NCBI GenBank assembly: GCA_037349105.1
Contig: JAYJMM010000097.1
Location: 1,860,001 to 1,924,000, forward strand
Direction: 5' to 3'
DNA length: 64,000 nt
Source of the DNA: Limnomonas spitsbergensis
Lineage: Eukaryota > Chlorophyta > Chlorophyceae > Chlamydomonadales
Part shown: in pieces, positions 34,001 to 64,000 of the stretch
Position numbering within the stretch: position 1 is the first letter of the stretch
How the letters are laid out: every line of letters begins with the position of its first letter
The notes under the pieces: model-generated
Told to the model about the DNA's origin: nothing
The model's database searches: none
The model's input: only the letters and a program-made list of their open reading frames with translations
Translations under genes and position numbers: made by a program

Positions 34001-37000
34001 CGGAAACGGAAACGCTGTGCCCACCTTCTCCTACCACACCTACCTGAGCTAGCAGCCTGTTGAGCAGGGCTTCGTTGCGGACCATCTTCTCCTTCATCTC
34101 CACTGCCTCAGCTGAGAGGGGCTCCACAGAGGTGGTCTCGACAGATACCGGCTGTGCATCAGACAGGGAGGGGAGAGGGACCATGGCAGGTCAAGACCCG
34201 GATTGGACAGAAGCGTCCTAAAAGCCTGCAGCCCAGCAGCCCTGCAGAAGACACCACCTCCCAGGCGGCAACAGCCAGGAGAAAGAAGAGGACTGGAATC
34301 GGGTCGAGACCCAATGGTGTCCCTACCGTAGATTGGATTTGCCTTCCCACAGGCAACAAACAAAAGATATATTTCAATGCTGCAAACTCTCGGGGCAAAC
34401 GGTCGACAATGACTCTTAAGACAATCGTTATGTCGTTAGTGCATGGATCCCTTTACCCTACCTACCGGTAAACAACGTAAATTATCAGGGAAGGCAAAGC
34501 AAATGTACGGTAGTCATTCAGCACAAAATCATAAATGGAACACAGGACTGACTTAGAAAACGCTGACATCAAACGGCAAGACATCAGGCATGCTGAAAGC
34601 ATTGATGCAACGGCTCATAACAAGGGACGTGTGTGAACATATCCACACCAGTCCATCCACACAGTACACTGACCTGGTTAGAAGGCGTTGGAGAAGTTAC
34701 TTCGCCTGCTCGCAAGCAGCAGCAGCAGCAGCAGTGCAGGGGCTGGTATTAGACGGCAGCAGTGCAACAGCGGCAGCAGTACAGTGGCAGGTGTTTGGCA
34801 GCAGCAGTGCAGCAGCGGCGGGCAGGCTATAGCAGGGCAGAGGCAGGCATTACGCATTTACAGCTGGAGCTCTTAGGCAAGATACTAGGCAAGCCTTGAT
34901 CAAAAGTGCTTGCTTGTGAGTCACAAAGCTCCCCTGCAGACCCCCACCCCCCCCCATGCAGCTGGCCTGTGCTGGCGGTTGTACCCGCCGGCTTGACAGG
35001 AGCATACACAAATCCCTCTCCTCCATGCCCTTCAGATATCTTGAGCCTACCTAGCCGGCCTGTGACGCGCAGCTTGATCTCCTTCATCTTGGCCATGATT
35101 TTTTGCATGGAGTTTTGCTTTTGGGGCGGGGCACGTAACCGGGCTCGGGGGTCAGCCTGCTGGGAGCCACGGTCAGCTATTCAATAAAAGTCCAGGATTC
35201 ACAAGTGCCTGATGCAAACATCATGGGACAGGACGATGTTCACAAGATGCAACTAAAATGCTGGAGATAAATCGCTTGTCCCTTCATTCCAGGCAGTTTC
35301 TTTCGGATCTGCGGCTCAAGTCATAATTTTGTCTTCCGTGTCGCACGTTCTGATTTTCGTTTCTTAACCACGTTTCAACTCGCCCTCATGTGGTGACAAA
35401 GTGGGTAGAGTAATCCCACTTACCGTTCGCTGCTCCTCTGCCGTTGAGGAGGAGACTGAGCCTTGTCTGTCGGGGCTGGGGGACTTGATGGTCTTTGGAG
35501 CCTCTTCGTCCTCCTCCTCTTCGTCCTCCTGCACAAGATCCCAGGACAAGGCTCCAATAAGCGGCTTTGATTGTGAAGGAGGGCCCAGGGCTGTTCTTTT
35601 TTCGTGACTCAGCTACAGGTCAGCTACACTCCGGCCGCTGGCCGGAGGCCCCATTTGTGGCCAGCCTTACTGCTTAGCCACCAGTTATAGGCCAGCCCAG
35701 GTTTCGTCCCAATCCGGCCTTAAACGGCCTCCCAAAGTTAAAGTCGTAGCCGGGGAAAAGACACTGGCCCAAGGATTGTACAAGGATTCGTCCAGGGCAA
35801 GGACGAAGAATGATGCGGAAAACTATAACCCTGGATGCAATTCAGACTGATTTCTTTTCCAGATTATATTATCATTACCGTATCATCAACTTCAACTATA
35901 ACTGGTAGATGAAGAACTGTATCTCATATCTCCAGATCAATGCCACGGCTGCGAAAAATATTCAAATTCTCCAGAATACAGCAGATTCGACTTGCCGTCC
36001 TTCACAATTAACGTCACTTAGGGGTGAGGGATTCATTATAATAAGAATGATTGAACGTCAACAATTATGTCAAGGCCAGTTCCAGTCTTAACAACGAGTT
36101 TCTGTCTATTTGGGGGGCCCGAGGGAAATCATGAGATGAACAATTCATTCATACCAGTACCCGAGGGAATGCAATTCAAATCTACGGTAACAGACTTGAG
36201 AAAATGCCAGCGCACCTCCTTATGGATTCCCATGGCTGATGTCACAATGTGCATCCTTGACGGAGCGCGCATTACTGGCCGCCGCCCAGCAGCTCCCTGC
36301 TTCCCTGCGCCCGATGTCGGTGTCGAAGGCTCCTCAGGGCAGCGCCCCGAGGCGCTTGCAGCGGCCGACTCTCGGCTACTGCTCCCAACATCCCCGGGCT
36401 TGCTGGCCTGATTGGGCACGAGATCAGAGGGGTCAACAGGATCAGGTGCTGCTGGTTCAAGACCCAGAAAGGCCTTCACGTGCAGGGCAGAATACTGGGG
36501 GGAGTTCACAAGCCAAACTTGAAAACAAATCCCCCCTGTGCTATTCTGGCGAAAACCATCTGCTTTCAAATGCCTGAGTTGGGAGGTACAAGTATTTTTT
36601 GGTTTTAAAAAGGGTTGTCACCTTGTCCGCCCGCTGCTGCGCTAGCGCCACCTCCAGCTCGTCCTCCTCCTCGTCACAAGCGCCATCGTCCTCCTCCTCC
36701 GTTGCGTTGGCCGCCACTCGCCGCAAGCCCAGCTTGGAGTTCAGGTACGCTTCGGACGCCACGCGCTTCACCACCTTCTTGATGCGGTCATCGATCACCT
36801 TTTAAGGAAGAAAACACAGGCTGGATGGGGGGCTGTTCAGCCTAGGCACAGAGCAGTGTTTATCGAACTTAGTTCAGCTACGATTCAGCTACTAATCAAC
36901 GCCCACAGCCAAGGAGGCCTGGTGCAGCCAGCCCTGCTGCACGGGTCACCGTACGCAGGCCAGTCAAGGTTTGGTCCCCATCGCCCAGCGGTGGCCCCGC

Positions 37001-40000
37001 CGGGCAAGGCCTAGGTCATCTGGCATGCACTGAAATAAACGCCTTTTAGGAGATCAACTTCATGCATGGCATCCAAAGACAACCAAGCCTTGTTGTTGCA
37101 AGCGTGCGGAGACCTTTTGCTGCGTAGGACCCTAGGTAGGGGCAGGTAGGCAGCTGGCCACAAAGCTTACGCCATTGCTGCGTGAGCACCCCTAAAACAG
37201 GGAGCACCGACACACCTCAAGGATGCCAATGTTGGACAATCAATCTCCTAATGGATGCCAAAGATGAGCTCACACCCATCTCAAGCATGCCAATGATGGG
37301 CATACTCTGTCCTAATGGCGGCCAAAGATGAGCAATTGCCAAGCTCAAGGATGCCAAAGACAGACATCAGCTCTCTCCTAATGGCGGCCAAAGATGAGCA
37401 CCAGCACAATGTGACGCGACGCTGCAGAAGCACCCCACCCTACCCCACCCCGCACCACCCTACCCCACCCTACCCTACCCCACTCTACCCCAAACCACCT
37501 TACCCTACCCCACTCTACCCCACCCCACCCTACCCTACCCCACCCTACCCCACTCTACCCCACCCCACCCTACCCTACCCTACCCTACCCTACCCTACCC
37601 CACCCTACCCCACCCCACTCTACCCTACCCCACCCTACCCCACCCCACCCTACCCCACCCTACCCCACTCTACCCCACCCTACCCTACCCCACCCCACCC
37701 TACCCCACTCTACCCCACCCCACCCTACCCCACCCCACCCTACCCCACTCTACCCCACCCCACCCTACCCCACCCCACCCCACAGCTCCCGTGCACCTTG
37801 TGCAGGCCGAAGTCCACGAGCTTGGCCATTGTCCCTGTCCCCCAGGGCGCCAACATAATGTTCTCCAGCTTCAGGTCCCTGAGGGACAGGAGTGATCAGG
37901 TTGGGTTGGACAGCGCTAGAATTGAGGTTCAACTTGTCCTTGAATTGAGTTTCAAATTGTCCATGAATCGAGGTTCAACCTGTCCTTGAATCGAGGTCAA
38001 CCTTGTCCTTCAATTGAGGTTTCGACCTATCCTTGAATCGAGGCCCAAGCTTCTCCTTGATCCCAGTTAGACACTAGTAGCTAGGAATTGGGATACTTCA
38101 AGCTATCCACCGTGCAAGAGGAGAGGGTACTGGACCTGTCATTCAATACATTAATTCAATTGTACACAAGATCATGCTCCTTAAAGTTTGTGTCAAAATT
38201 TTATCTGAAATAATCCATCAGCGACCGCCCCCCCGATGGCGAGTTCAGGTATTCGGAAATCATACTTCCAAAGTGCGTCACTGGGTCAAGGTCAGCTTCA
38301 CCAAGGTCAGCTTCACCAAGGGTGGCTGAGCTGAGGAGGGGAGAGAAACCAGAGGCTACTTCAAGAAAGAGCAGACAAGGGCATACATGGAGCAAATGAG
38401 CATCTCAAACCGCAACTTTTCACAAACTAAAAGGTTCAAATGCCCAAGCATTTCCACCCCCAACCAGCCCCTTTCAGCTTTTCGGCCCCCTTTGGTCCTT
38501 CCTCTCTCCTCTTCCTGCTGCACCTTCACAGCATCATGCCACCCAGCATGTCTCGCCACAAATCACACCTCCCTGCTGCACACACCCATAATGGCCCATC
38601 CTGCAGTCCTTGCCCTCCTCCACCCTCACCTGGCCTGAGCTCTTCCCTGCAACAGCTCTAGACATCACCTAGATCGCCTCCCAACCTTCAGTCATGGACC
38701 CACGAGTACATGACCCACCTGTGCATGACCCACCTGTACATGACCCACCTGTGCATGACCCACCTGTGCATGACCCACCTGTGCATGACCCACCTGTACA
38801 TGACCCACCTGTACATGACCCACCTGTACATGACCCTCCTGTACATGACCCACCTGTACATGATCCACCTGTGCATGACCCACCTGTGCATGACCCACCT
38901 GTGCATGACCCACCTGTGCATGACCCACCTGTACATGACCCACCTGTGCATGATCCACCTGTGCGTGACCCACCTGTGCATGAACCACCTGTGCATTATC
39001 CACATGTTCATGACCCACCAGTACATGACCCACCTGTGCATGACCCACCTGTGCATGACCCACCTGTGCATGACCCACCTGTGCATGACCCACCTGTGCA
39101 TGACCCACCTGTGCATGACCCACCTGTACATGACCCACCTGTGCATGACCCACCTGTACGTGACCCACCTGTGCCTGACCCACCTGTGCATGATCCACCT
39201 GTGCATGATCCACCTGTGCATGACCCACCTGTGCATGACCCACCTGTGCATGATCCACCTGTGCATGACCCACCTGTGCATGACCCACCTGTGCATGACC
39301 CACCTGTGCATGACCCACCTGTGCATGATCCACCTGTGCATGACCCACCTGTGCATGACCCACCTGTGCATGACCCACCTGTGCATGATCCACCTGTACA
39401 TGAACCACCTGTGCATGACCCACCTGTGCATGACCCACCTGTGCATGACCCACCTGTGCATGACCCACCTGTGCATGATCCACCTGTGCATGACCCACCT
39501 GTACATGACCCACCTGTGCATGACCCACCTGTGCATGACCCACCTGTGCATGACCCACCTGTGCATGATCCACCTGTGCATGACCCACCTGTGCATGACC
39601 CACCTGTGCATGACCCACCTGTGCATGATCCACCTGTACATGAACCACCTGTGCATGACCCACCTGTGCATGACCCACCTGTGCATGACCCACCTGTGCA
39701 TGACCCACCTGTGCATGATCCACCTGTGCATGACCCACCTGTGCATTATCCACCTGTACGTGACCCACCTGTGCATGACCCACCTGTACATGACCCACCT
39801 GAGCATGACCCACCTTTGCATGAGTACATAGCCCACCTGTTCATGAATACATGACCCACCTGTACATGAGTACATGACCCACCTGTGCATGATCATGGGC
39901 TTTTGTTCCGATACGTTATGCAGGTATTGCATGCCCTCTGCCACGTTCATCATCCACGCCAGCGCGTCAAGGCTCGTATAAATACATTTTTGGCGGTTGA

Positions 40001-41795
40001 GCATTTGCTTGTACACCTGGAGGTGGTTGCAAAGGTGGGCAGATACGTAATATTCAGCATGTATACTTAAAAGAGCGCATGCATGTTGTGATACAATAGG
40101 TCACCTGCAGACGCGTCTGGTGCTGTTGACGTCAAAGCAATGGGGTAGGCGTAGCATCGCTTGCGGTAGCAAAGAGGATCACAGTCAGACCGTGATTCAC
40201 AGGGCGTGTCAAGGTTTAGGACAGAGGTTCGGGCTAGAGTCAAGGCAAGTGGCTTCATGCAATGCGGCAACCACTTCAAATGAGTCGGCATTACATGAGA
40301 GAAAATATTATTTGATAGCCCATCCAGGGCAGTTCTGGTGTCAGAACAGAGGCCATGAAAATCATAAGATTTATTCCATTGCCCTCAGGGTTCCAGTCCC
40401 ATGCGTCCTCTGATATGTCCTGTACAGTACAGAAATATGACACCCCATGCGCCATAATCTTGGCCAGCGCATGCATTGGCCAGAGTGTCTATTCTCTGAC
40501 AAAGCTATGCTACATGAGGATGGAAGCCGAGGCATATTTCTTCAGTCGGTCTCAAGCTTTAGGGGTCAGCCCATGCATGCGGACTGAAAGGCACCCTGAC
40601 TCTATGCTAGACTGGATGACCTCAGCCTCTCAGAGCTGTGACAAGTTTTTCACTGCATGCCATCCCATGTCGAGTGTAGCTTTCCTCCCTCTGTGTGTCT
40701 TATGCTCATCAGCAATAGATTACCCTCCTATTACAGCCATCAGGTAATGGAGAGGGTATTACAGAGGGCACTCAAGAGCCGTTCCTGTTGCCCCTTTCTG
40801 GTGTTGCCACATCGGTGGTACGTGTTGCTTGCTGACGGTGCGGGCTACATCATAACATCGGCGTGCCTGCTTCACAAACGCACCTTGTGCAAGAGGTTTC
40901 CTCCCTTGATCAGTTCCTGGACAATGAAGAGGCTACCCGGGTTCTGTTCGTCACCGTCGTCATACTTGCCGATACCGTAGCATGCCGCAATGTTCCTGTT
41001 GAGTCGGGACAGGAACACTCGAGGGAGAGGAAGTATGTGGAGAGAGCTTTGTCGCGGACGCAATAGTGCCCAAACGAGGATGCAAATTTTTGCACAGCAA
41101 GTGTTTGTCTTCTCCAGGCTTCATGTGCGCCTCTCATCACGCAGCCAAGACACCGCACCCAATTCCTACCCGACTTACGGGTGCGAGATTTTGGTCATAA
41201 TCTTGGCCTCCTTTATGAAGCGCAAGCAATCACTTCTTCTCTTCAGCATGTTCTTCTTAAGCACCTGACAAGGCACATGGAACGGAGGCAACGTCACAAC
41301 GTGCCAGCCTGGTGTCGATTCGGTCAGTCGATCTGTCCACCCCGTGGCAGCATTCCCGGGCCCAAGAGGGCAACACCTAAAGCTGCAAGATCCGCATTAT
41401 ACGAGTTGCTATAGTGCAGGCTCATTGTTTGAGAGAACCCCTTCCATAACATAACAGCCAGCATGGCTGTCCCGAGGGGCACAATAGACGGAGTAGCTCG
41501 TCGCGGCCATGCGAAAGGAAGCGCTGGAAACTGCTCGCACCTTGACAGCGACGATGCTCTTATCTCCGGTCTCTGGGTTTTTATAGACACCTTCATAAAC
41601 TCGAGAGAATGCTCCTTCCCCAATAGGAGTCGTTATGTTCACCCAGTTCGCGCTGAACACGATCGAAAAGCTGCTATCCTTCTGGTTGAATGATGGGCTG
41701 GCAGAAGGAGGTCCATGCTGCCTGTTCATTTCCTGTCTGCTCGTCGAAGGCGACTCTTCTCTACCACCGACGGGTCTGTCCCACCTTGCGTCCAT
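31050..41795 (-). CDS. Protein kinase with a ~310-residue insertion in the activation segment, 672 aa
   Basis: Sixteen exons join in phase: 41795-41541, 41264-41179, 40995-40884, 40016-39883, 37878-37797, 36798-36622, 36494-36216, 35528-35424, 35156-35051, 34705-34674, 34151-34044, 33542-33421, 32657-32565, 32334-32250, 31948-31826 and 31169-31050 (TAG). All kinase landmarks are present: glycine loop GEGAFSRV (59-66), VAVK with Lys85, helix-C Glu104, HRDLKLEN (195-202), DFG (218-220), MAPE (546-549), DVFSFG and CWAQDAHVRPNF. This predicts an active Ser/Thr (or dual) kinase, closest in style to the TKL/CAMK-like kinases of green algae. Residues 224-533, between DFG-LHK and YNLTEAVGSWAYMAPE, are an insertion with basic, acidic (EEEDD, EDEEEEDEE) and Ser/Pro-rich parts. 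The start is the first ATG of the open frame. A shorter first exon starting at 41654 is also possible. Confidence 0.9.
32395..32470. repeat. 24-bp tandem repeat, 3 copies
   Basis: CATCTCAATTCCTCTTCATGG repeats about three times in a kinase intron (between exons 12 and 13). Confidence 0.85.
32775..32862. repeat. 27-bp tandem repeat, 3 copies
   Basis: GAAATGATGCGCCAAGGCCT followed by GGATTTA repeats three times without change in the kinase intron between exons 11 and 12. Confidence 0.92.
33301..33431. repeat. 114-bp duplication including the exon-12 splice donor
   Basis: TCTCACCTGATTTCAT occurs at 33301 and 33415, 114 bp apart. On the minus strand this is ATGAAATCAG|GTGAGA, where the copy at 33415 is the real donor of the exon 33542-33421. 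The intervening bases (AGCTGCACAGCCCTGAAG...) recur again, more diverged and without the donor, at about 32940. Confidence 0.85.
33820..33915. repeat. 22-23-bp tandem repeat, 5 copies
   Basis: CAGACAAACCTTGTACTGC-type units repeat five times in the kinase intron between exons 11 and 12. Confidence 0.88.
34706..34735 (-). promoter_or_regulatory. CTG-repeat tract serving as acceptor region of a 32-nt microexon
   Basis: On the minus strand (CTG)n followed by CTTGCGAGCAG leads into the predicted 32-nt exon 34705-34674. That exon supplies the phase (1 to 0) otherwise missing between exons 9 and 11 and encodes EVTSPTPSNQ. The acceptor depends on a trinucleotide repeat that can change in length. 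Confidence 0.6.
35596..35760. mobile_element. MITE copy, 'CAGCTAC' family (copy 5)
   Basis: Starts CTTTTTTCGTGACTCAGCTA and ends GTCGTAGCCGGGGAAAAG. The inverted ends and the CCCCATTTGTGGCCAGCC block match the other copies. It lies in a kinase intron (between exons 7 and 8). Confidence 0.75.
36868..37045. mobile_element. Diverged MITE copy, 'CAGCTAC' family
   Basis: AGTTCAGCTACGATTCAGCT, then GGCCAGTCAAGGTTTGGTCC and GGTGGCCCCGCCGGGCAAGG. Blocks are in family order but eroded. It lies in the kinase intron between exons 5 and 6. Confidence 0.45.
37432..37784 (-). repeat. (GGGTAGGGTGGGGT)n array starting 12 nt after a splice donor
   Basis: The plus strand is about 350 bp of ACCCTACCCC/ACCCC units. 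In the kinase transcript (minus) it reads GGGTGGGGTAGGG and begins just after the donor of exon 5 (37878-37797). It is dense enough to form RNA G-quadruplexes. It resembles telomere repeats but lacks the TTTTAGGG register expected of chlamydomonad telomeres. Confidence 0.92.
37885..38050. repeat. Degenerate ~25-bp tandem repeat
   Basis: TTGTCCTTGAATTGAGGTTC-type units repeat about six times in kinase intron 4, next to exon 5. Confidence 0.75.
38700..39881 (-). repeat. 15-bp minisatellite made of copies of the exon-4 splice donor
   Basis: On the minus strand the unit is GTGGGTCATGCACAG, repeated about 75 times from 39815 down to 38700, with three 23-nt variant units between it and exon 4. The junction of exon 4 with its intron is itself ATGCACAG|GTGGGTCATG, so each unit carries a copy of the 5' splice site. 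The unit is a multiple of three and has no stop, so frames on both strands stay open. The long open frames here are not independent genes. Confidence 0.95.
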
Positions 41796-49415: not shown

Positions 49416-52400
49416 CTAGCGCCACCATGGTCCTTCAATGGACCGCTCGCGAGGTGACATTGGGTTCTCCCCTGTCATTGGTGTACGCGATGCTATTGAG
49501 CCCGCCCGCCAGTGGTCTTGTAACGACCCGTTCCCCCTGCCGGGTGGCAGGGTTGGTCTAGGTGTCCAACGTGCCGGCTTTCTCCCCTCGCCCGTCTCAT
49601 CCGCCTCTTCCTCCTCTGCCGTCTCCTCTTCCTCATCTGTCTCGTCCTCCTCTTCCGTCTCTTCCGCCTCTGGCCTGTGATCTGCGACCACCAGGTCTCT
49701 CATTTCCAGGGCGAACCTCTCCATCAGCACCACCTGCTGCGTCAGCACAGTGATCTGCTCCTCATCGGTCATGCACAGGTAGTTGGGCACAGTCATCCTG
49801 AACTCGCACAGCTTGGCCCTGGTGGCCACTGGCAGCCCATCATAGAACATGTGCGAGACCGAGTGCTTTCTGCCAAAGTGGTCTGGTGCATCCCTGGAGA
49901 TCTGCAGCAACTCTGCCGTGGACAGGATCCTGTGGGCGAAAGCCTCAACCGTCTCCTCCGGCTTGACTCCTGGGTCCAGGGTGGTCTTGACTCCCAGCTT
50001 GAGGCCGGTGATTGCTGCCCTTTCGTCTGAAGTTGGCTTGCCCACCTCCCTTTGGACCACCCTGATCCACAGGGTGAGTAAGGATACCTCGCTGGGCGGC
50101 CCGACCGCCGGGGCACTCCACGCCTCTTGGATCCGCTCGACCTCCCTGGAGGCTTTGTCTCCTTGGGGTGCTGATCGTATGGCGACCACCAGCGGCCCCA
50201 CGCATGCTGGCTTGGCTGTCCACATGCCCACCAAGGAGCGGACCAACAGAGCCATGGCTGAGGGTGACTGGCAAGACCCTGCAATTTCTCCTGCCACCAC
50301 TGCCAGGGCTGGCGGCTCGTCCGATAAAGCCAGGCGGTTGTGCGAGCCCCATGAGCTGCAGGCCTGGCAGTATTGCCTGGTTGCGACTGCCCCCGGTTGG
50401 GACATGTCCAGCACTGGCACATTGCCCTGAATGTTGGGGATCTTGGTGAACCGCGTTCCCCCAGCCAGCTGCAGGATCATCTGTTGCTGCAGCCGTATGT
50501 TTGTCTCCGCCTGTTCCTGGGTTAACCTGTCCCTTCTTTGTCTCGCAGATTCCCTGCCGGAGCCTGGGCCGCGACCCTCTGTATCCTCCGAGTCTGACAT
50601 GCTGGGGTCCGAGCCAGATCCGCCGCCGCCGTTCCTGGCTGGGCCTTGCCTGCGTTGGTCCCGTTGGTCTCTGCGGTCTGCGCTCAGTTGGGACTGTCCG
50701 CCCCCAGATGGCCTCATGCTTGCCACGCTTCTGGGGCGGCTGCTGCCCTCCGAAGGCTGTATCGCTGGGCCCTGGCGCCTATCCTCTTCTGACTCCGCCT
50801 GCCTGCTGGGCTGGTAACTGCCATGCCTGCTGGGCTGCGTTCCACCCGTGTACTCCCTTGCCTCGGAAGCTGACAGGCAGTCGTCCCTGCTTTCCTGCCT
50901 TTGCTGGTAGTCTCCCCCGGTGGTACCTGCCTGGTTGATTTCCTGAACGACCCGCCTTCCTTGGCTGGGGCCTTGGCTCCTCTCCGGCCTGCCTCGTGCC
51001 TGTGCTGCTTGTCCCCGCGGGAACTCAGCAATGTGGTCCACCTGGCCTTCTTGGCCGCTGTGTTCCGTATGATCCACGAAGCGCAGCAGGTCGTGGGGTT
51101 CTTGCCTGCTGGCCCTTCTTGGCACTGGGCCCTGCTGGAAGCCGGTTGTTCTGGGCTGTTCGCTGGCCGCTGGGCTGCTGGGTCTGGGTCTGCGCCCTAC
51201 GTCCAGCCGCTGGTTTCGGAGGCTGGGCTCACTGCTGGCTTCCAGGCGCTCCCATCTGGCTTGGCTTGCAGCAGGTGCGGTCCCTTCCGTCTGCTCCTGC
51301 CATCGCACCTCCCTGCGGTCGTCTTGCTGCAGTCTGGATGCTTCGAACCCTTCCCACTCCTCGAGCTCCCCTTGCTCCGATTCGGGCTCTTCCAGATCCC
51401 CTGCTGTGCCGTTGCACCATCCGTCGGCGAAGGCCTTGACAGCTAGGACCGCCTCAGGCCCTGCTGCTCCTCTGGACACTCTGCGCAGGGCTGCCAGCAG
51501 CGTTGCCCAGTCCTGCCCCGTGTGGGGGATGCCCATAAGGGCCTTCGTCGCCCATTCCGCCAGGTGGTGGCTTTGGAACTCCTCGATAGCCTGGGTCTGA
51601 TCGCTGAGGTGGGCGAAACACCTGGAGCACACCTGCTGCCACAGCCGTGCTGCCCATTGCAGGATGTCTGCCCATCCGATTGGCTGGAGTTCTCTAGTTG
51701 GTAGTTCCGCCGTACCCGTCTGGCTCACGCTCCCCGCGTGTTCTTCCACTGCCGGACGCCGCTCCCCTGGGATAGGCGTCCACCCCGGGTAGCTGAAGTA
51801 CCCATAAAGGCTGTCAGCCTGGCCGCTGCCCTTCTTTTCCCTGCTGTTGCCTTTGGCCACGGCCTCTTGCCTCTGCCTGCCTGCGCTAGCTGGGAACCTG
51901 GACTGGGGTGTGCCATGCCCCGTGGATGCGGGTGCTGCTTGAACGGGTATCTGTCCATACCTGGGTGCCAACCACATGGGCTCCCGGATGCTTTCCTGCT
52001 CAACAGCTTCCACCCTGCTTCTCATTGGTTTGGGCTCTTCTTCCTCCACACTGCTGGAGCCCGCCTCAGCCTTCTGGGGCTGGTGTGGCTCCTGCACCCG
52101 CAGCTGACCCTGCCCCGGGTTCTCAACCGCCTCCAGCGCTGCCTGCTTTGCTCCTCCCCTCTGGATGGTGGCATCCATGAGATGCTCACATGCCCTGTCG
52201 CTGTGCTCGCACTCGAACCCGCAGAACATGCATACTCCTCCTTTGTTAAGCCGCATGGCCTGACGCATGTCATTGCGGATCTCCATCGGTTGCTGACGGG
52301 CACCTGCTGCACGGTCCTCCCAGAGCCTGTCTAGATCCACATCTGCAGGCGGTACATCATGAATTGCTACCGGGCACACATTTCTGATGCCGCTGTCGTC

Positions 52401-53309
52401 CTCGGGTGCTGGCACCGGAGACCTGCTGCTCCTAGCTGCTTCCATGTCACGGTCAGCTGCCCTGCCTGCCATTGCCAGGCTGGAACTGCTGCAGTCGTCT
52501 GGGTCGAGACTCAGGCTAGGGCTGGCTTGACCCACTGGCCCACCCGGCTCTGCTGAGCAGGAACCCTCATGGCTGGCCTGCTCAGCCCCGTGCCCCCAGG
52601 GTAGTGCCACGTGCCATGCAACCATGGCTGCGTGCTGCAGCTGCTGCTCTTCCTCCTCCTCGCCTTGTGGCCGCAACGCCTGTAAGTTATGATTGGCATG
52701 TTCCAAGCTATGCTTCACCCTCCTCAGCTGCCTGGTCATCCTCAACTGCCAAGCCAACATTGGCTGCCTGGCCACCCACAGCTGCCTGGCCACTCCTTTG
52801 AGCTTCTGCCGGTACCAGTTAACCTTTTCCCTCAGCATGGGTACGGAGATTCCCAGCTCCTCTGACCCCTCAGGATTCTCTGCTGCAACTGGCTTGGGTG
52901 AGTGTCCATTGTGTTCCCCATGGGCACTGTCCTGGTGGGTTGGGCTTGCTACCCTTGTGCCCGGGATCACCTGCCTTGCCCCTTCAGTTGGACCTTGCAC
53001 GGCCAACCCCTCCGGCAGGTTGCCTGCCTGGCCCCCCTTGAGTCCTGAGGCCTTGACCAGGGACTGGCTAGGGCTGCCGGCAGCTGCAGGCACACATGCC
53101 TCACTCTTTGGCGCCCCCAGCTGTTTGTTGGCCTGCTGGACCGCCCCTGGGTCTGATATTGGCACCTTGGTCCCTCCAGGAGCTGCTGCCACTGGTGGTG
53201 TGATAGGCCCATCCTCTTCTGGTTGGTGCATATGCATCTGAACCGACACCATTGCATGCCTGTGCACGTGGTCCTCGACCTCACTTGATCCAACTGGTTC
53301 CTCAGCCAC
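49416..53309 (-). CDS. Gag-like polyprotein, main part (young element)
   Basis: Frame of 1297 codons. Its first codon is GTG, preceded in the same frame by a TAG at 53331-53333 that separates it from the repeat-rich frame upstream; read-through or splicing would fuse them. It contains MCFGFECEH-type Cys/His residues (CMFCGFECEHSDRACEH), the block shared with the older element (QPIGWADILQWAARLWQQVC, HHLAEWATKALMGIPHTGQD), a Ser/Arg/Gln-rich linker, and a capsid-like segment (LGVKTTLDPGVKPEETVEAF, HRILSTAELLQISRDAPDHF, MFYDGLPVATRAKLCEFRM). It ends in a very acidic stretch (TEEEDETDEEEETAEEEEAD). The capsid-like part follows retrotransposon gag style. The rest is not recognised. Unusually large for a gag. 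Confidence 0.8.
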   Translation of the reverse strand: MAEEPVGSSEVEDHVHRHAMVSVQMHMHQPEEDGPITPPVAAAPGGTKVPISDPGAVQQANKQLGAPKSEACVPAAAGSPSQSLVKASGLKGGQAGNLPEGLAVQGPTEGARQVIPGTRVASPTHQDSAHGEHNGHSPKPVAAENPEGSEELGISVPMLREKVNWYRQKLKGVARQLWVARQPMLAWQLRMTRQLRRVKHSLEHANHNLQALRPQGEEEEEQQLQHAAMVAWHVALPWGHGAEQASHEGSCSAEPGGPVGQASPSLSLDPDDCSSSSLAMAGRAADRDMEAARSSRSPVPAPEDDSGIRNVCPVAIHDVPPADVDLDRLWEDRAAGARQQPMEIRNDMRQAMRLNKGGVCMFCGFECEHSDRACEHLMDATIQRGGAKQAALEAVENPGQGQLRVQEPHQPQKAEAGSSSVEEEEPKPMRSRVEAVEQESIREPMWLAPRYGQIPVQAAPASTGHGTPQSRFPASAGRQRQEAVAKGNSREKKGSGQADSLYGYFSYPGWTPIPGERRPAVEEHAGSVSQTGTAELPTRELQPIGWADILQWAARLWQQVCSRCFAHLSDQTQAIEEFQSHHLAEWATKALMGIPHTGQDWATLLAALRRVSRGAAGPEAVLAVKAFADGWCNGTAGDLEEPESEQGELEEWEGFEASRLQQDDRREVRWQEQTEGTAPAASQARWERLEASSEPSLRNQRLDVGRRPRPSSPAASEQPRTTGFQQGPVPRRASRQEPHDLLRFVDHTEHSGQEGQVDHIAEFPRGQAAQARGRPERSQGPSQGRRVVQEINQAGTTGGDYQQRQESRDDCLSASEAREYTGGTQPSRHGSYQPSRQAESEEDRRQGPAIQPSEGSSRPRSVASMRPSGGGQSQLSADRRDQRDQRRQGPARNGGGGSGSDPSMSDSEDTEGRGPGSGRESARQRRDRLTQEQAETNIRLQQQMILQLAGGTRFTKIPNIQGNVPVLDMSQPGAVATRQYCQACSSWGSHNRLALSDEPPALAVVAGEIAGSCQSPSAMALLVRSLVGMWTAKPACVGPLVVAIRSAPQGDKASREVERIQEAWSAPAVGPPSEVSLLTLWIRVVQREVGKPTSDERAAITGLKLGVKTTLDPGVKPEETVEAFAHRILSTAELLQISRDAPDHFGRKHSVSHMFYDGLPVATRAKLCEFRMTVPNYLCMTDEEQITVLTQQVVLMERFALEMRDLVVADHRPEAEETEEEDETDEEEETAEEEEADETGEGRKPARWTPRPTLPPGRGNGSLQDHWRAGSIASRTPMTGENPMSPRERSIEGPWWR

Positions 53310-53330
53310 TTGCTGGTTCAGCTTCTGTTC

Positions 53331-55853
53331 CTAAGAATGCAGTTGGTCCGGCTCGCAGCCACCGGCCACCACAGGTGGCACATGGGCTGCCTCCCTCGGC
53401 AAACACCGTCGTGACGCCTGCACCTGCAGTTGTATTGGCTCGCAGCCACCGATCCCTACAGGTGTCACAGGAACGTCCTCTCTCTGCAAACACAGCCGTG
53501 ACGCCTGCACCTGCAGTTGGCCTGGCTCACAGCCACCGGCCACCACAGGTGTCTCATGGGCTGCCTCCCTCGGCAAACACCGCCGTGACGCATGCACCTG
53601 CAGTTGGCACGGCTCGTGGCCACCGGTCACCACAGGTGTCACATGAGCTGCCTCCCTCTGCAAGCACCGTCGTGATGCCTGCACCTGCAGTTGGCCTGGC
53701 TTACAGCCACTGGCCACCACAGATGTCACAGGAACTGCCTCTCTCGGCAAGCATCGTCGTGATGCCTGCACCTGCAGTTGGCCTGGCTCGCAGCCACCGG
53801 CCACCACAGGTGTCACAGGAACGTCCTCTCTCTGCAAACACAGCCGTGACGCCTGCACCTGCAGTTGGCCTGGCTCACAGCCACCGGCCACCACATGTGT
53901 CTCATGGGGTGCCTCCCTCGGCAAACACAGCCGGGACGCATGCACCTGCAGTTGGCACGGCTCGTGGCCACCGGTCACCACAGGTGTCACATGAGCTGCC
54001 TCCCTCTGCAAGCACTGTCGTGATGCCTGCACCTGCAGTTGGCCTGGCTCACAGCCACTGGCCACCACAGATGTCACAGGAACTGCCTCCCTCGGCAAGC
54101 ATCGTCGTGACGCCTGCACCTGCAGCTGGCCTGGCTCACAGCCACTGGCCACCACAGGTGTCACAGGAACTGCCTCCCTCTGCAACCACAGCCGTGACGC
54201 CTGCACCTGCAGTTCGCCTGGCTCACAGCCACCGGCCACCACAGGTGTCCCATGGGCTGTCTCCCTCGGAAAACACAGCCGTGACGCATGCACCTGCAGT
54301 TGGCACGGCTCGTGGCCACCGGTCACCACAGGTGTCACATGAGCTGCCTCCCTCTGCAAGCACCGTCGTGACGCCTGCACCTGCAGTTGGCCTGGCTCAC
54401 AGCCACTGGCCACCACAGGTGTCACATGAACTGCCTCCCTCTGCAAGCACCGTCGCGACGCCTGCACCTGCAGTTGGCCTGGCTCACAGCCACCGGCCAC
54501 CACAGGTGTCACAGGAACGTCCTCCATCTGCAAACACAGCCGTGACGCCTGCACCTGCTGTTGGCCTGGCTCACAGCCACCGGCCACCACATGTGTCTCA
54601 TGGGGTGCCTCCCTCGGCAAACACAGCCGTGACGCATGCACCTGCAGTTGGCCTGGCTCGCAGCCACCGATCCCTACAGGTGTCACAGGAACGTCCTCTC
54701 TCTGCAAACACAGCCGTGACGCCTGCACCTGTAGTTGGCCTGGCTCGCAGTCACCGATCCCTACAGGTGTCACATGGGCTGCCTCCCTCTGAAAGCACAG
54801 CCGTGGCACTTGCCCTTGCAGGTGGCCTGGCTCGCAGACACCGATCACTACAGGTGTTACGGGAACTGCCTCACTCTGCAAGCATAGCCGTGACGCTTGC
54901 ACCTGCAGTTGTCCCGGCTCGCAGCCACCGGCCATCACAGGTGTTACAGGAACTGCCTCCCTCTGCAAACGCAGCCGTGACGCATGCACCTGCAGTTGGC
55001 CGGGCTCGCAGCCGCTGATTACCACAGGTGTCACAGGAACTGCCTCCCTCTGCAAACACAGCCGTGACGCCTGCACTTGCACTTGGCCTGGCTCGCAGCC
55101 ACCGGCCATCACAGGTGTCACAGGAACTGCCTCACTCGGCAAACACAGCCGTGACGCATGCACCTGCAGTTGGCCCAGCTCGCAGTCATCGGCCACCACA
55201 GGTGTCACATGATCTGCCTCACTCTGGTGCAAACACAGCCGTGACGCCTGCACCTGCAGTTGGCCTGGCTCACAGCCACCGGCCACCACATGTGTCACAG
55301 GAACTGCCTCCCTCTGCAAACACAGCCGTAACGCTTGCACCTGCAGTTGGCCTGGCTTGCAGCCACCGGCCGCTGGTTTGGGTGGACAGGCATTCCCCTT
55401 CGGAACACAGTTGATCAGGTGCAGCTGCTCGCTAGCTACCGGGCTATCCTGCCTGGGTGGGCAGGCACTCTCTGCCGTAACACAGTTGATCAGGTGCAGC
55501 TGCTCTCTAGCTACCGGGCTATCCTGCCTGGGTGGGCAGGCACTCTCTGCCGTAACACAGTTGATCAGGTGCAGCTGCTCGCTAGCTACCGGGCTATCCT
55601 GCCTGGGTGGGCAGGCACTCTCTGCCGTAACACAGTTGATCAGGTGCAGCTGCTCGCTAGCTACCGGGCTATCCTGCCTGGGTGGGCAGGCACTCTCTGC
55701 CGTAACACAGTTGATCAGGTGCAGCTGCTCGCTAGCTACCGGGCTATCCCGCCTGGGTGGACAGGCACTCCCTCGGGTCTGCTGTTGGTGCATGGAACTT
55801 GGCTCGCCTTCACTGCTGAGGATATCAAACATGGACCAGCCGTTGGGGGGCAC
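53331..55853 (-). CDS. Repeat-rich gag-like extension with 25- and 29-residue repeats (young element)
   Basis: Frame of 840 codons ending in TAG at 53331. Its first codon is GTG directly after an AG, so it may be an exon start. N-terminal: five copies of a 25-residue repeat (CPPRQDSPVASEQLHLINCV...). Then about 23 copies of a 29-residue repeat (GGCEPGQLQVQASRLCLQRE plus VPVTPVVA), each with two Cys. The 87-bp and 75-bp DNA units are multiples of three, so opposite-strand frames are open too. The minus frame is preferred because it lies in line with the gag-like frames on either side. Function unknown. Confidence 0.6.
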   Translation of the reverse strand: MPPNGWSMFDILSSEGEPSSMHQQQTRGSACPPRRDSPVASEQLHLINCVTAESACPPRQDSPVASEQLHLINCVTAESACPPRQDSPVASEQLHLINCVTAESACPPRQDSPVAREQLHLINCVTAESACPPRQDSPVASEQLHLINCVPKGNACPPKPAAGGCKPGQLQVQALRLCLQREAVPVTHVVAGGCEPGQLQVQASRLCLHQSEADHVTPVVADDCELGQLQVHASRLCLPSEAVPVTPVMAGGCEPGQVQVQASRLCLQREAVPVTPVVISGCEPGQLQVHASRLRLQREAVPVTPVMAGGCEPGQLQVQASRLCLQSEAVPVTPVVIGVCEPGHLQGQVPRLCFQREAAHVTPVGIGDCEPGQLQVQASRLCLQREDVPVTPVGIGGCEPGQLQVHASRLCLPREAPHETHVVAGGCEPGQQQVQASRLCLQMEDVPVTPVVAGGCEPGQLQVQASRRCLQREAVHVTPVVASGCEPGQLQVQASRRCLQREAAHVTPVVTGGHEPCQLQVHASRLCFPRETAHGTPVVAGGCEPGELQVQASRLWLQREAVPVTPVVASGCEPGQLQVQASRRCLPREAVPVTSVVASGCEPGQLQVQASRQCLQREAAHVTPVVTGGHEPCQLQVHASRLCLPREAPHETHVVAGGCEPGQLQVQASRLCLQREDVPVTPVVAGGCEPGQLQVQASRRCLPREAVPVTSVVASGCKPGQLQVQASRRCLQREAAHVTPVVTGGHEPCQLQVHASRRCLPREAAHETPVVAGGCEPGQLQVQASRLCLQREDVPVTPVGIGGCEPIQLQVQASRRCLPREAAHVPPVVAGGCEPDQLHS
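53340..55390. repeat. 87-bp tandem repeat, about 23 copies
   Basis: GCACCTGCAGTTGG recurs every 87 bp (for example 53507 and 53594). Units vary by blocks (GTCACAGGAACTGCCTCCCT against GTCTCATGGGCTGCCTCCCT), and groups of units are repeated together, pointing to unequal crossing-over. Confidence 0.92.
55408..55780. repeat. 75-bp tandem repeat, 5 copies
   Basis: TTGATCAGGTGCAGCTGCTC starts at 55411, 55486, 55561, 55636 and 55711, an exact 75-bp period. The units are almost identical. Confidence 0.95.
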
Positions 55854-55882
55854 CTGCCTTCATGGCTGCTCCACACGCCTGG

Positions 55883-61032: not shown

Positions 61033-61960
61033 GCTTAATGTGGTAGGCTGGACATACACACAGATTCACCTTGGCTAAGCAGCTGTTGGATTGTTTACGC
61101 ACTTTTCATTTGTTACTGTTACTGTTATGGGCCATGCAGCTCTAATGCAGCCATGCCAGGGCTAATGCTTGCTGATCTGCTGCGCTGTCTGACCAACCTA
61201 TTCTGTTCTTTGCAGCGCTGGCCTGCACTATGTTGGTCCCATTGGCATGGACTCTGTAGCAGGCGGTGCTGCCACCGGACAGTACGGCGTCGCTGCGGGC
61301 AGTGCCAGTCCGTATGCTAGGTAAGCTCAATCTGGTAGGCTGGACATAAGCACAAAATTGATCTTGGCTAGACAGTTGCTGGATTGATTGCGCATTTTTC
61401 ATTTGTAACTGTGACTGTTATGGGCCATTCAGCTCTACTGCAGGCACGTCTGTGCCAATGATGGCCATTCTGCTGTGCTGACTGACCCACCTTTCTGTGT
61501 TGTGCAGGGGTGGCCTGCCCCATGCTGGTAATTCCAGATGACCGGGCGCCAATGCCGGCCTTCAGCTTCCAGGCTCCCTTTCCTCCCTGGACCTCATCTC
61601 AGGCAGGTATCTACATGCCAGGTCAGCAGTTGCACCCGCCATGCCTCCCTTCGGGGGTGCCTCGACACAGTTGAACTACGAAGCAGACGGTGCTGTCACA
61701 GGACTGTATGGCGTTGCTACGGGCACCGCCAATCAGCATGCCAGTTCACATGCCAGGTAAGGTTGATGCTGGTAGGCTGGACATGCGCACATGTTCATTG
61801 TTGCGGGAAAGCAGCTTGATTATTATGCGCATATTTTTATTTATTACTGTGACTGCAGTGGGCCATACGGTCAAACTAAAGCCATGCCAAGGCCAATACT
61901 TGCTGATCTGCTGCGCTGATGACTGACCAACCTATTCTGTTTTGTGCAGGGATGGCATGC
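60820..61960 (+). repeat. 292-bp exon-plus-intron tandem duplication
   Basis: Intron end, acceptor and exon recur with acceptors ending at 60923, 61215 and 61507 (292-bp steps) and again at 61949 (442-bp step). Exons encode GLHYADPIGM..., GLHYVGPIGMDSVAGGAATG and a diverged third with GAVTGLYGVATGTAN. Unit 2 keeps its donor (AGGTAAG at about 61319) and unit 1 has lost it. The intron ends of units 1 and 4 are nearly identical. Confidence 0.88.
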
Positions 61961-64000
61961 AGGACCCCCCTTTGTTGCGCTGCACAGGTCGCCGGTGACA
62001 GCACCCAGCGTAACAGCGGCAGGGGCAGCAGCAGGGCCCTCCCATGCTGCGCTGAACAGGCCGCCGGTGACAGCACCCAGCGCACAACGGGAGTGCCAGC
62101 AGCAAGGCCCTACCATGCTGCGCTGAACTGGCCGCCGGTGACAGCACCAAGCGCGACGGCGGTTGTGCCCGCAGCAGGGCCCTCCCATGCTGCGCTGTAC
62201 AGGCCGCCGGTGACGGCACCCAGTGCGACGGCGGAAGTGGCAGCAGCAGGGCCCTGCTATGCTGCGCTGAACAGGCCGCCGGTGACAGCACCCAGCGCGA
62301 CGGCGGTAGTGCCCGCAGCAGGGCCCTCCCATGCTGCGCTGAACATGCCGCCGGTGACAGCACCCAGCGCGACGGCGGCAGTGCTCGCAGCAGGGCCCTC
62401 CCATGTTGCGCTGTACAGGCCGCCGGTGACAGCACCTAGCGCGACGGCGGCAATGCCAGCAGCGGGGCCCTCCCATGCTGCGCTGAACAGGCCGCCGGTG
62501 ACAGCACCCAGCGCAACGGCGGCAGTGCCAGCAGCAGTGCCCTCCCATGCTGCGCTGAACAGGCCACCGGTGACAGCACCCAGCGCGACGGCGGTAGTGC
62601 CCGCAGCAGGGCCCTCCCATGCTGCGCTGTACAGGCCGCCGGTGACGGCACCCAGCGCGACGGCGGCAGTGGCAGCAGCAGGGCCCTCCCATGCTGCGCT
62701 GAACAGGCCGCCGGTGACAGCACCCAGCGCGACGGCGGCAGTGCCCGCAGCAGGGCCCTCCCATGCTGCGCTGAACAGGCCGCCGGTGACAGCACCCAGC
62801 GCGACAGCGGCAGTGCTCGCAGCAGGGCCCTCCCATGTTGCGCTGTACAGGCCGCCGGTGACAGCACCTAGCGCGACGGCAGCAATGCCAGCAGCGGGGC
62901 CCTCCCATGCTGCGCTGAACAGGCCGCCGGTGACAGCACCCAGCGCAACGGCGGCAGTGCCAGCAGCAGGGCCCTCCCACGCTGCGCTGAACAAGCCGCC
63001 GGTGACAGCACCCAGCGCAACGGCAGCTGTGGCAGCAGCAGTGCCCTCCCATGCTGTGCTGAACGGGCCGCCGGTGACAGCACCCAGCGCGACGGCGGCA
63101 GTGGCAGCAGCAGGGCCCTCCCATGCTGCGCTGAACAGGCCGCCGGTGACAGCACCCAGCGCAACGGCGGCAGTGCCCGCAGTAGGGCCCTCTCATGCTG
63201 CGCTGTACAGGCCGCCGGTGACGGCACCAAGCGCGACGGTGGCAGTGGCAGCAGCAGGGCCCTCCCATGCTGCGCTGAACAGGCCGCCGGTGACAGCACC
63301 TAGCGCGACGGCGGCAATGCCAGCAGCGGGGCCCTCCCATGCTGCACTGAACAGGCCGCCAGTGACAGCACCCAGCGCGACGGCGGCAGTGCCCGCAGCA
63401 GGGCCCTCCCACGCTGCGCTGTACAGGCCGCTGGTGACGGCACCCAGCGCGACGGCGGCAGTGCCCGCAGCAGGGCCCTCCCATGCTGCGCTGAACATGC
63501 CGCCGGTGACAGCACCCAGCGCGACGGCGGCAGTGCCCGCAGCAGGGCCCTCCCATGTTGCGCTGTACAGGCCGCCGGTGACAGCACCTAGCGCGACGGC
63601 GGCAATGCCAGCAGCGGGGCCCTCCCATGCTGCGCTGAACAGGCCGCCGGTGACAGCACCCAGCGCAACGGCGGCAGTGGCAGCAGCAGGGCCCTCCCAC
63701 GCTGCGCTGAACAGGCCGCCAGTGACAGCACCCAGCGCAACGGCAGCTGTGGCAGCAGCAGGGCCCTCCCATGTTGCGCTGTACAGGCCGCCGGTGTCGG
63801 CACCCAGCGCGACGGCGGCAGTGGCAGCAGCAGGGCCCTCCCATGCTGCGCTGAACAGGCCGCCGGTGACAGCACCCAGCGCGACGGCGGCAGTGCCCGC
63901 AGCAGGGCCCTCCCATGCTGCGCTGAACAGGCCGCCGGTGACAGCACCCAGCGCGACAGCGGCAGTGCTCGCAGCAGGGCCCTCCCATGTTGCGCTGTAC
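61952..64000 (+). CDS. Pro/Ala/Thr-rich repeat protein, incomplete at window end
   Basis: From ATG 61952 the plus strand is open for 683 codons to the end of the window. After about 55 residues in another register it settles into a 24-residue repeat, PPVTAPSATAAVPAAGPSHA followed by ALNR or ALYR, about 26 copies. The Pro next to Ala/Ser/Thr pattern resembles arabinogalactan- or hydroxyproline-rich glycoproteins of algal cell walls, which suggests an extracellular matrix protein. No signal peptide is seen at this ATG, so the real start is probably upstream, through the exon-like units at 60.9-61.7 kb. The opposite strand is also open (Cys/His/Arg-rich) but is a less plausible protein. Confidence 0.4.
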   Translation, partial: MACRTPLCCAAQVAGDSTQRNSGRGSSRALPCCAEQAAGDSTQRTTGVPAARPYHAALNWPPVTAPSATAVVPAAGPSHAALYRPPVTAPSATAEVAAAGPCYAALNRPPVTAPSATAVVPAAGPSHAALNMPPVTAPSATAAVLAAGPSHVALYRPPVTAPSATAAMPAAGPSHAALNRPPVTAPSATAAVPAAVPSHAALNRPPVTAPSATAVVPAAGPSHAALYRPPVTAPSATAAVAAAGPSHAALNRPPVTAPSATAAVPAAGPSHAALNRPPVTAPSATAAVLAAGPSHVALYRPPVTAPSATAAMPAAGPSHAALNRPPVTAPSATAAVPAAGPSHAALNKPPVTAPSATAAVAAAVPSHAVLNGPPVTAPSATAAVAAAGPSHAALNRPPVTAPSATAAVPAVGPSHAALYRPPVTAPSATVAVAAAGPSHAALNRPPVTAPSATAAMPAAGPSHAALNRPPVTAPSATAAVPAAGPSHAALYRPLVTAPSATAAVPAAGPSHAALNMPPVTAPSATAAVPAAGPSHVALYRPPVTAPSATAAMPAAGPSHAALNRPPVTAPSATAAVAAAGPSHAALNRPPVTAPSATAAVAAAGPSHVALYRPPVSAPSATAAVAAAGPSHAALNRPPVTAPSATAAVPAAGPSHAALNRPPVTAPSATAAVLAAGPSHVALY
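61985..64000. repeat. 72-bp tandem repeat, about 28 copies, runs off the window
   Basis: The unit contains GGGCCCTCCCATGCTGCGCT, GAACAGGCCGCCGGTGACAG and CACCCAGCGCGACGGCGGCA. Variants at fixed positions (GTGCCCGCAGCAG, GTGGCAGCAGCAG, ATGCCAGCAGCGG; AACAGG or TACAGG) recur in the same order over several units, a higher-order structure. One unit at about 62080 is a base shorter and shifts frame. Confidence 0.95.

Follow-up and report, generated by a model that had tools for sequence, protein, structure and literature searches.

A protein kinase gene in this genome raises the question of what a long row of near-identical 5' splice sites beside a catalytic loop means: whether it diversifies the kinase, whether it made the intron in which it lies, or whether it is simply removed with that intron. 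We analysed a window of 64,000 nt from one contig of a 260-Mb genome assembly in 124 contigs. The kinase gene lies on the minus strand, with predicted exons at 41795-41541, 41264-41179, 40995-40884, 40016-39883 and 37878-37797 and a sixth from 36798; these boundaries were placed by protein alignment rather than by RNA. When joined, exons 1-5 matched the Pfam family PK_Tyr_Ser-Thr (1.2e-28) and aligned to relatives as far as DFGLHK, and the sixth exon opens with VIDDR, the same continuation as in relatives. Genome-wide, the kinase profile PF00069 matched 140 places. The features around the catalytic loop are as follows:

39883..40016, minus strand: kinase exon 4 (VYKQ...MIMHR), ending in ATGCACAG, phase 2; predicted from the exon model, Pfam and alignment to relatives
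39883..39894, minus strand: final 12 nt of exon 4, GATCATGCACAG, which also form the end of the unit variant GTGGATCATGCACAG
37879..39882, minus strand: intron 4, 2004 nt, GTGGGT...CCCTCAG; predicted from the exon model, the join MIMHR-DLKLEN being continuous with relatives
39814..39882, minus strand: three 23-nt units with GTGGG at the start of each, 69 nt in all, from unit reading
38704..39813, minus strand: 74 units of 15 nt, consensus GTGGGTCATGCACAG, from TRF and unit reading
37919..38060, minus strand: second array in intron 4, near its 3' end, with a 23-nt unit of different sequence, from a tandem-repeat scan
37797..37878, minus strand: kinase exon 5 (DLKLEN...DFGLHK), predicted from the exon model
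36799..37796, minus strand: intron 5, with AAGGTG at each end, containing arrays at 37431-37783 and 37216-37400; from a repeat scan and comparison with relatives

Exon 4 terminates at CAG/GTGGGT (the slash marks the predicted junction), and intron 4 starts at 39882 with GTGGGTCATG. The array begins at this very position. Its 23-nt units start at 39882, 39859 and 39836 and are followed by 15-nt units from 39813 down to 38704, which makes 77 copies (3 x 23 nt + 74 x 15 nt; TRF gave 75.1 copies with 93% matches). The exact consensus occurs in 41 of the 74 15-nt units, GT is retained in 73, GTGGGT in 57 and the final AG in 71, while CAG/GTGGGT is present at 55. Taking every GTG preceded by G and counting the exon edge, we obtained 75 candidate donors. 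The initial annotation had described about 75 functional-looking donors, in phase at the HRD motif of the kinase, in a stop-free 15-nt unit preceded by three 23-nt units that together keep the frame, and this description was borne out. The origin of such an array by chance is excluded. The kinase frame stays open across it in a 470-aa stop-to-stop ORF, which has little weight as evidence because the 15-nt run is free of stops in four of the six frames and contains three in a fifth.

An exact 28-mer from the array occurred 31 times in the 260-Mb genome, all 31 at the kinase locus, and the array is therefore no dispersed family. A dispersed intron family or introner element was ruled out on this basis, with the array alone as the query.

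The exon itself suggests where the array came from. Its last 12 bases recur exactly at the end of one variant of the unit, which makes a copied splice junction a good account of the origin and supports the earlier proposal that the unit arose from the junction itself. Duplication of these 12 exon bases together with GTG would explain variant GTGGATCATGCACAG without further change. We propose that a short stretch over the exon 4/intron 4 junction was tandemly duplicated in this way, and that slippage or unequal exchange would have expanded the duplication to 77 copies, nearly all of which keep the look of a 5' splice site. The direction could also have been the opposite, with the exon converted by the array. 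Close relatives carry IIHR, except for P0032 with IMHR, and the sequence here is MIMHR, giving the exon the repeat's ATGCACAG ending.

Relatives of the kinase indicate how the locus looks elsewhere. We used 37 of 47 proteins in this comparison, dropping the intron 4 rows of P0028 and P0035 as false matches; the named relatives are from Astrephomene, Sanguina and Chlamydomonas sp. UWO 241, which we take to be chlamydomonadalean green algae. Among the 37, some of whose records may be spliced, 12 are uninterrupted through HRDLKLEN with no insert at the HR/DLKLEN site, and P0043 breaks exactly at HR/D as the window does, with a few intron-derived residues that do not resemble the array. In P0004, P0005, P0010 and P0033 the frame is interrupted two or three codons past HR; intron positions at the catalytic loop may vary within about 10 nt among relatives. 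The intron 5 site was uninterrupted in all 11 relatives covering it, which suggests that intron 5 may be a lineage gain, and possibly a recent one. Such read-through does not prove that an intron is absent, as part of the records may derive from transcripts or from predictions with the introns already removed. Arrays occur in two of the three young-looking introns of the kinase gene and in neither of the two old-looking ones, a very small sample.

The strength of the candidate donors does not single out the exon edge. The computed pairing energy with the 5' end of U1 was -11.4 for 57 of the 75 donors, including the exon-edge donor, and -5.3 to -6.3 for the other four donors of the kinase gene. 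As 56 other donors equal the exon-edge donor in pairing energy, computed strength alone gives it no preference. Among several strong donors, the one closest to the 3' splice site can win. Judging from the relatives and from the ABCA7 gene described below, splicing would chiefly use the exon-edge donor, so that the array would be wholly removed and the HRDLKLEN loop left intact. Low-level use of later donors is likely and would mostly give a faulty kinase.

Human ABCA7 provides a precedent for this layout. According to the accessible text of PMC5954066, the first GT of the variable number tandem repeat (VNTR) in ABCA7 intron 18 is the donor of exon 18, and transcripts retaining one unit occur beside the canonical ones. 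Exon 19 skipping rises with VNTR length, and unit retention is independent of length (PMC5954066, and the review PMC6660495 as far as available). In both genes the repeat stands directly beside the exon, its first two bases are the flanking exon's GT donor (here exon end 39883 and array start 39882, the exon end coming from protein alignment) and the units vary slightly; in the kinase, the donor is repeated in nearly every unit. The ABCA7 unit is 25 bp, so one retained unit shifts the frame, as does the first 23-nt unit of the kinase array but not its 15-nt unit. Furthermore, length variation and unit-retaining splicing have been shown for ABCA7, whereas the kinase array is known from the DNA of one assembly. 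Given this precedent and the recurrence of similar arrays across the genome described below, the layout of the kinase locus is not unique, and the single array is an algal counterpart of the ABCA7 repeat.

Together, we consider it likely that the kinase array is a donor-anchored intronic minisatellite, mostly neutral and spliced mainly at the exon-edge donor. It is probably a harmless consequence of the genome's richness in repeats, not a means of producing many kinases, and would be tolerated because the exon-edge donor is intact.

Similar arrays recur across the genome, and this recurrence is a more interesting lead than the single kinase locus. Three CAGGTGNGT sites at short spacing gave 10,671 matches genome-wide (6,429 + 4,242), and the reversed pattern gave 973. 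Altered patterns matched 612 times for GCAGTGNGT (reverse 117), 450 for CAGATGNGT, with one change at +1 (reverse 52), 1,103 for AAGGTGNGT (reverse 616) and 496 for TAGGTGNGT (reverse 929), and the pattern AAGGTGAGT matched eight times (reverse 277); these counts exclude CAGGTGCGT. Matches overlap inside arrays, and the baseline varies widely, from 52 to 973 in the reversed controls. The excess of CAGGTG is real and specific to CAGGTG. Match counts alone prove no link to splicing. Among the matches listed, from C4 to C16:282 kb, the distinct arrays numbered 13 for CAG, five for AAG, two for GCAGTG, one for TAG and one for CAGATG, which lies within a CAG array. Roughly 100 matches were listed for the 13 arrays, which extrapolates to more than 1,000 arrays, a rough figure based on the first contigs only. 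Tandem repeats abound in this genome, and the kinase array is one example among many of its kind: in a 194-kb sample comprising the window and 13 stretches of 10 kb, 45.6 kb were tandem repeat, with 51 arrays. In one of these stretches (L033), a single 42-nt array runs across the whole 10 kb.

We opened the 13 arrays and looked at their surroundings. Five of the 13 have a candidate exon edge. Three of these (L035, L037 and L046) begin after putative exons, and same-strand exons up to about 3 kb upstream match exostosin, TPR and kinesin. Joined neighbouring exons scored 1.2e-11 for exostosin, above the cut-off, and 7.2e-6 for TPR and 3.3e-6 for kinesin, neither of which reached the curated cut-off. 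None of the three Pfam matches extends to the exon that bears the array, and this exon was assigned to its gene from the open frame and the splice sites. A plausible exon is also present at the L036 array, and L040 shows an apparent exon start on the opposite strand. Pfam searches with nine short exon translations gave none above the cut-off, and the exostosin gene on C4 was not among the matches of a PF03016 profile search. Comparing the upstream sequence with the unit in nine arrays, we found exact common tails of 4-18 nt, although the search pattern itself dictates three of these bases (CAG). Another intron of the TPR gene (L037 and L050, C4:5084102-5089102) consists entirely of a 12-nt tandem repeat, from its donor through to its acceptor.

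One explanation for these numbers is that the CAGGTG motif is itself prone to tandem growth, and that arrays occur at donors since donors carry the motif. This would overlap with a donor-anchored minisatellite rather than exclude it. It agrees with the specificity of the excess and with the spread of the reversed controls, which indicates that factors unrelated to splicing cause wide differences between motifs. Conversely, the single change at +1 in CAGATGNGT cuts the matches from 10,671 to 450, CAGGTG is found in only five of 77 array units in the 194-kb sample (tenth among 120 permutations, tied with others), and array edges at exon ends are not predicted from the motif alone. Growth of the motif by itself is thus possible but rather doubtful.

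The reading that we prefer, a mostly neutral minisatellite anchored on the exon 4 donor, also has points against it. Donor choice is deduced from DNA and protein alignment, not read from RNA. The genome-wide excess is tied to a C before AGGT, which would not be expected if any donor could seed an array, as AAG/GT is found at three of the five donors of the kinase gene. In addition, the strict donor 9-mer was present in only two of the 51 array units of the 194-kb sample, the kinase array and L022:2476-5762. The latter comprises 66 copies of a 50-nt unit whose consensus carries CAGGTGGGT on the minus strand.

A broader proposal is that CAG/GTG junctions seeded a whole class of minisatellites, perhaps more than 1,000, which would supply dozens of spare donors per intron and make or extend introns, the phase at the kinase permitting a ladder of inserts. 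We put this forward tentatively and think it unlikely. Should such a class exist, a single set of RNA data could reveal how the spliceosome picks among dozens of near-identical donors, and the same data set whether tandem arrays at CAG/GT sites are a current source of introns. The searched literature, which leaves most subscription journals outside its coverage, yielded no account of an algal genome with a class of arrays seeded on donors, and the word minisatellite is absent from the main text, as far as accessible, of a comparative Chlamydomonas genome paper (PMC8226300).

The array might also have given birth to the intron. In the Rogers model, a stretch bearing AGGT is copied within coding sequence and the resulting GT...CAG units are spliced out; here the intron would later have been lengthened. 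Such a history would fit the 71 of 74 units that end in AG and the 73 that begin with GT, so that most junctions are both a 3' and a 5' splice site, as well as the 12-nt match between exon end and unit, the intron 4 site that is uninterrupted in 12 relatives and broken in one, the excess for CAGGTG and not AAGGTG or TAGGTG, and the TPR-gene intron that is all repeat. Human tandem arrays are reportedly an origin of alternatively spliced introns, to judge by the title of Zhuo et al. 2007. Introns gained by tandem duplication have been described for ATP2A1 under the Rogers AGGT model (PMC4974935) and, with 24-nt repeats, for the fission yeast genes SPOG_01682 and SOCG_00815 (PMC3629103). In the accessible parts of these reports, such introns are like the kinase array in that the units have both splice-site halves and exon sequence is repeated within the intron. 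Unlike them, the kinase intron has its acceptor outside the array: the array stops at 38704 and the intron runs on for 825 nt through different sequence to 37879, so that the two splice sites do not both lie in the repeat; the fission-yeast proto-splice site, AGGC, is a further difference. P0043 breaks at the same place with residues unlike the array, TAG/GT shows no excess despite being a good junction of both kinds, some of the uninterrupted relatives may be spliced records, and the pattern among relatives fits loss of the intron as well as its gain. Overall, birth of intron 4 from the array seems improbable. Minisatellites also drive intron changes in duplicated human genes, where repeats activate splice sites (PMC2812944); those units average 30 bp x 4 in recent paralogues and, unlike at the kinase, no row of donor-anchored sites is described in the part of that report available. 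Further material on tandem units as intron makers is found in PMC2891723, likewise available in part.

Finally, the initial annotation had envisaged a ladder of kinases with inserts of variable length. Donors 2 (39859, +23 nt) and 3 (39836, +46 nt) are out of frame, with predicted stops at residues 205 and 241. The first in-frame alternative is donor 4 (+69 nt), which would insert 23 residues and replace HRD with QRD; donors 5 and 6 would yield LR and YR, and HR is first restored at donor 7 (39768, +114 nt). The initial annotation did not mention that donors 2 and 3 leave the frame. Protein searches for relatives with WVMHR repeats matched two of three candidates, P0019 and P0024, over 12-13% of the query, and a second search gave no candidate.

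Nothing points to selection on the peptide or on the donor. Among units, all 42 codon differences in the kinase frame were nonsynonymous and none synonymous, although these are partly shared by descent and so are not independent events, and coding selection on the array was rejected. Departures from the unit consensus affected 17 of 444 bases at positions 1-6 and 28 of 666 at positions 7-15; the donor bases are kept no better than the remainder of the unit, and the most variable positions were 11 (17 of 74) and then donor base +5 (16 of 74). Periods divisible by three were found in 34 of the 77 arrays of at least 2.5 copies in the 194-kb sample, and in four of the 17 donor arrays with one clear period among the matches listed, two of the 17 being read from opened arrays. 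As such periods are ordinary in this genome, the 15-nt phase at the kinase is not special, and we rejected it as evidence for function. In favour of a functional ladder, the 15-nt units are in phase, 57 of the 75 donors are equal in computed strength, and ABCA7 combines one-unit retention with exon skipping that grows with repeat length (PMC5954066, accessible text). Such a ladder, in which the choice among donors would vary the WVMHR insert of the kinase and the number of repeats would tune splicing, is very improbable: the peptide is not conserved, splicing from donor 2 or 3 would change the reading frame, no in-frame insert is shorter than 23 residues and the shortest yields QRD, no relative with repeat inserts was found and the other donor arrays listed show no preference for multiples of three.

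Elsewhere in the window, tandem arrays of 87, 75 and 72 nt, all multiples of three, lie at 53331-55859 and 61871-64000 and are open for hundreds of codons on both strands. At 49416-53330, the minus strand contains a stop-to-stop frame of 1,304 aa, the end of which looks gag-like.
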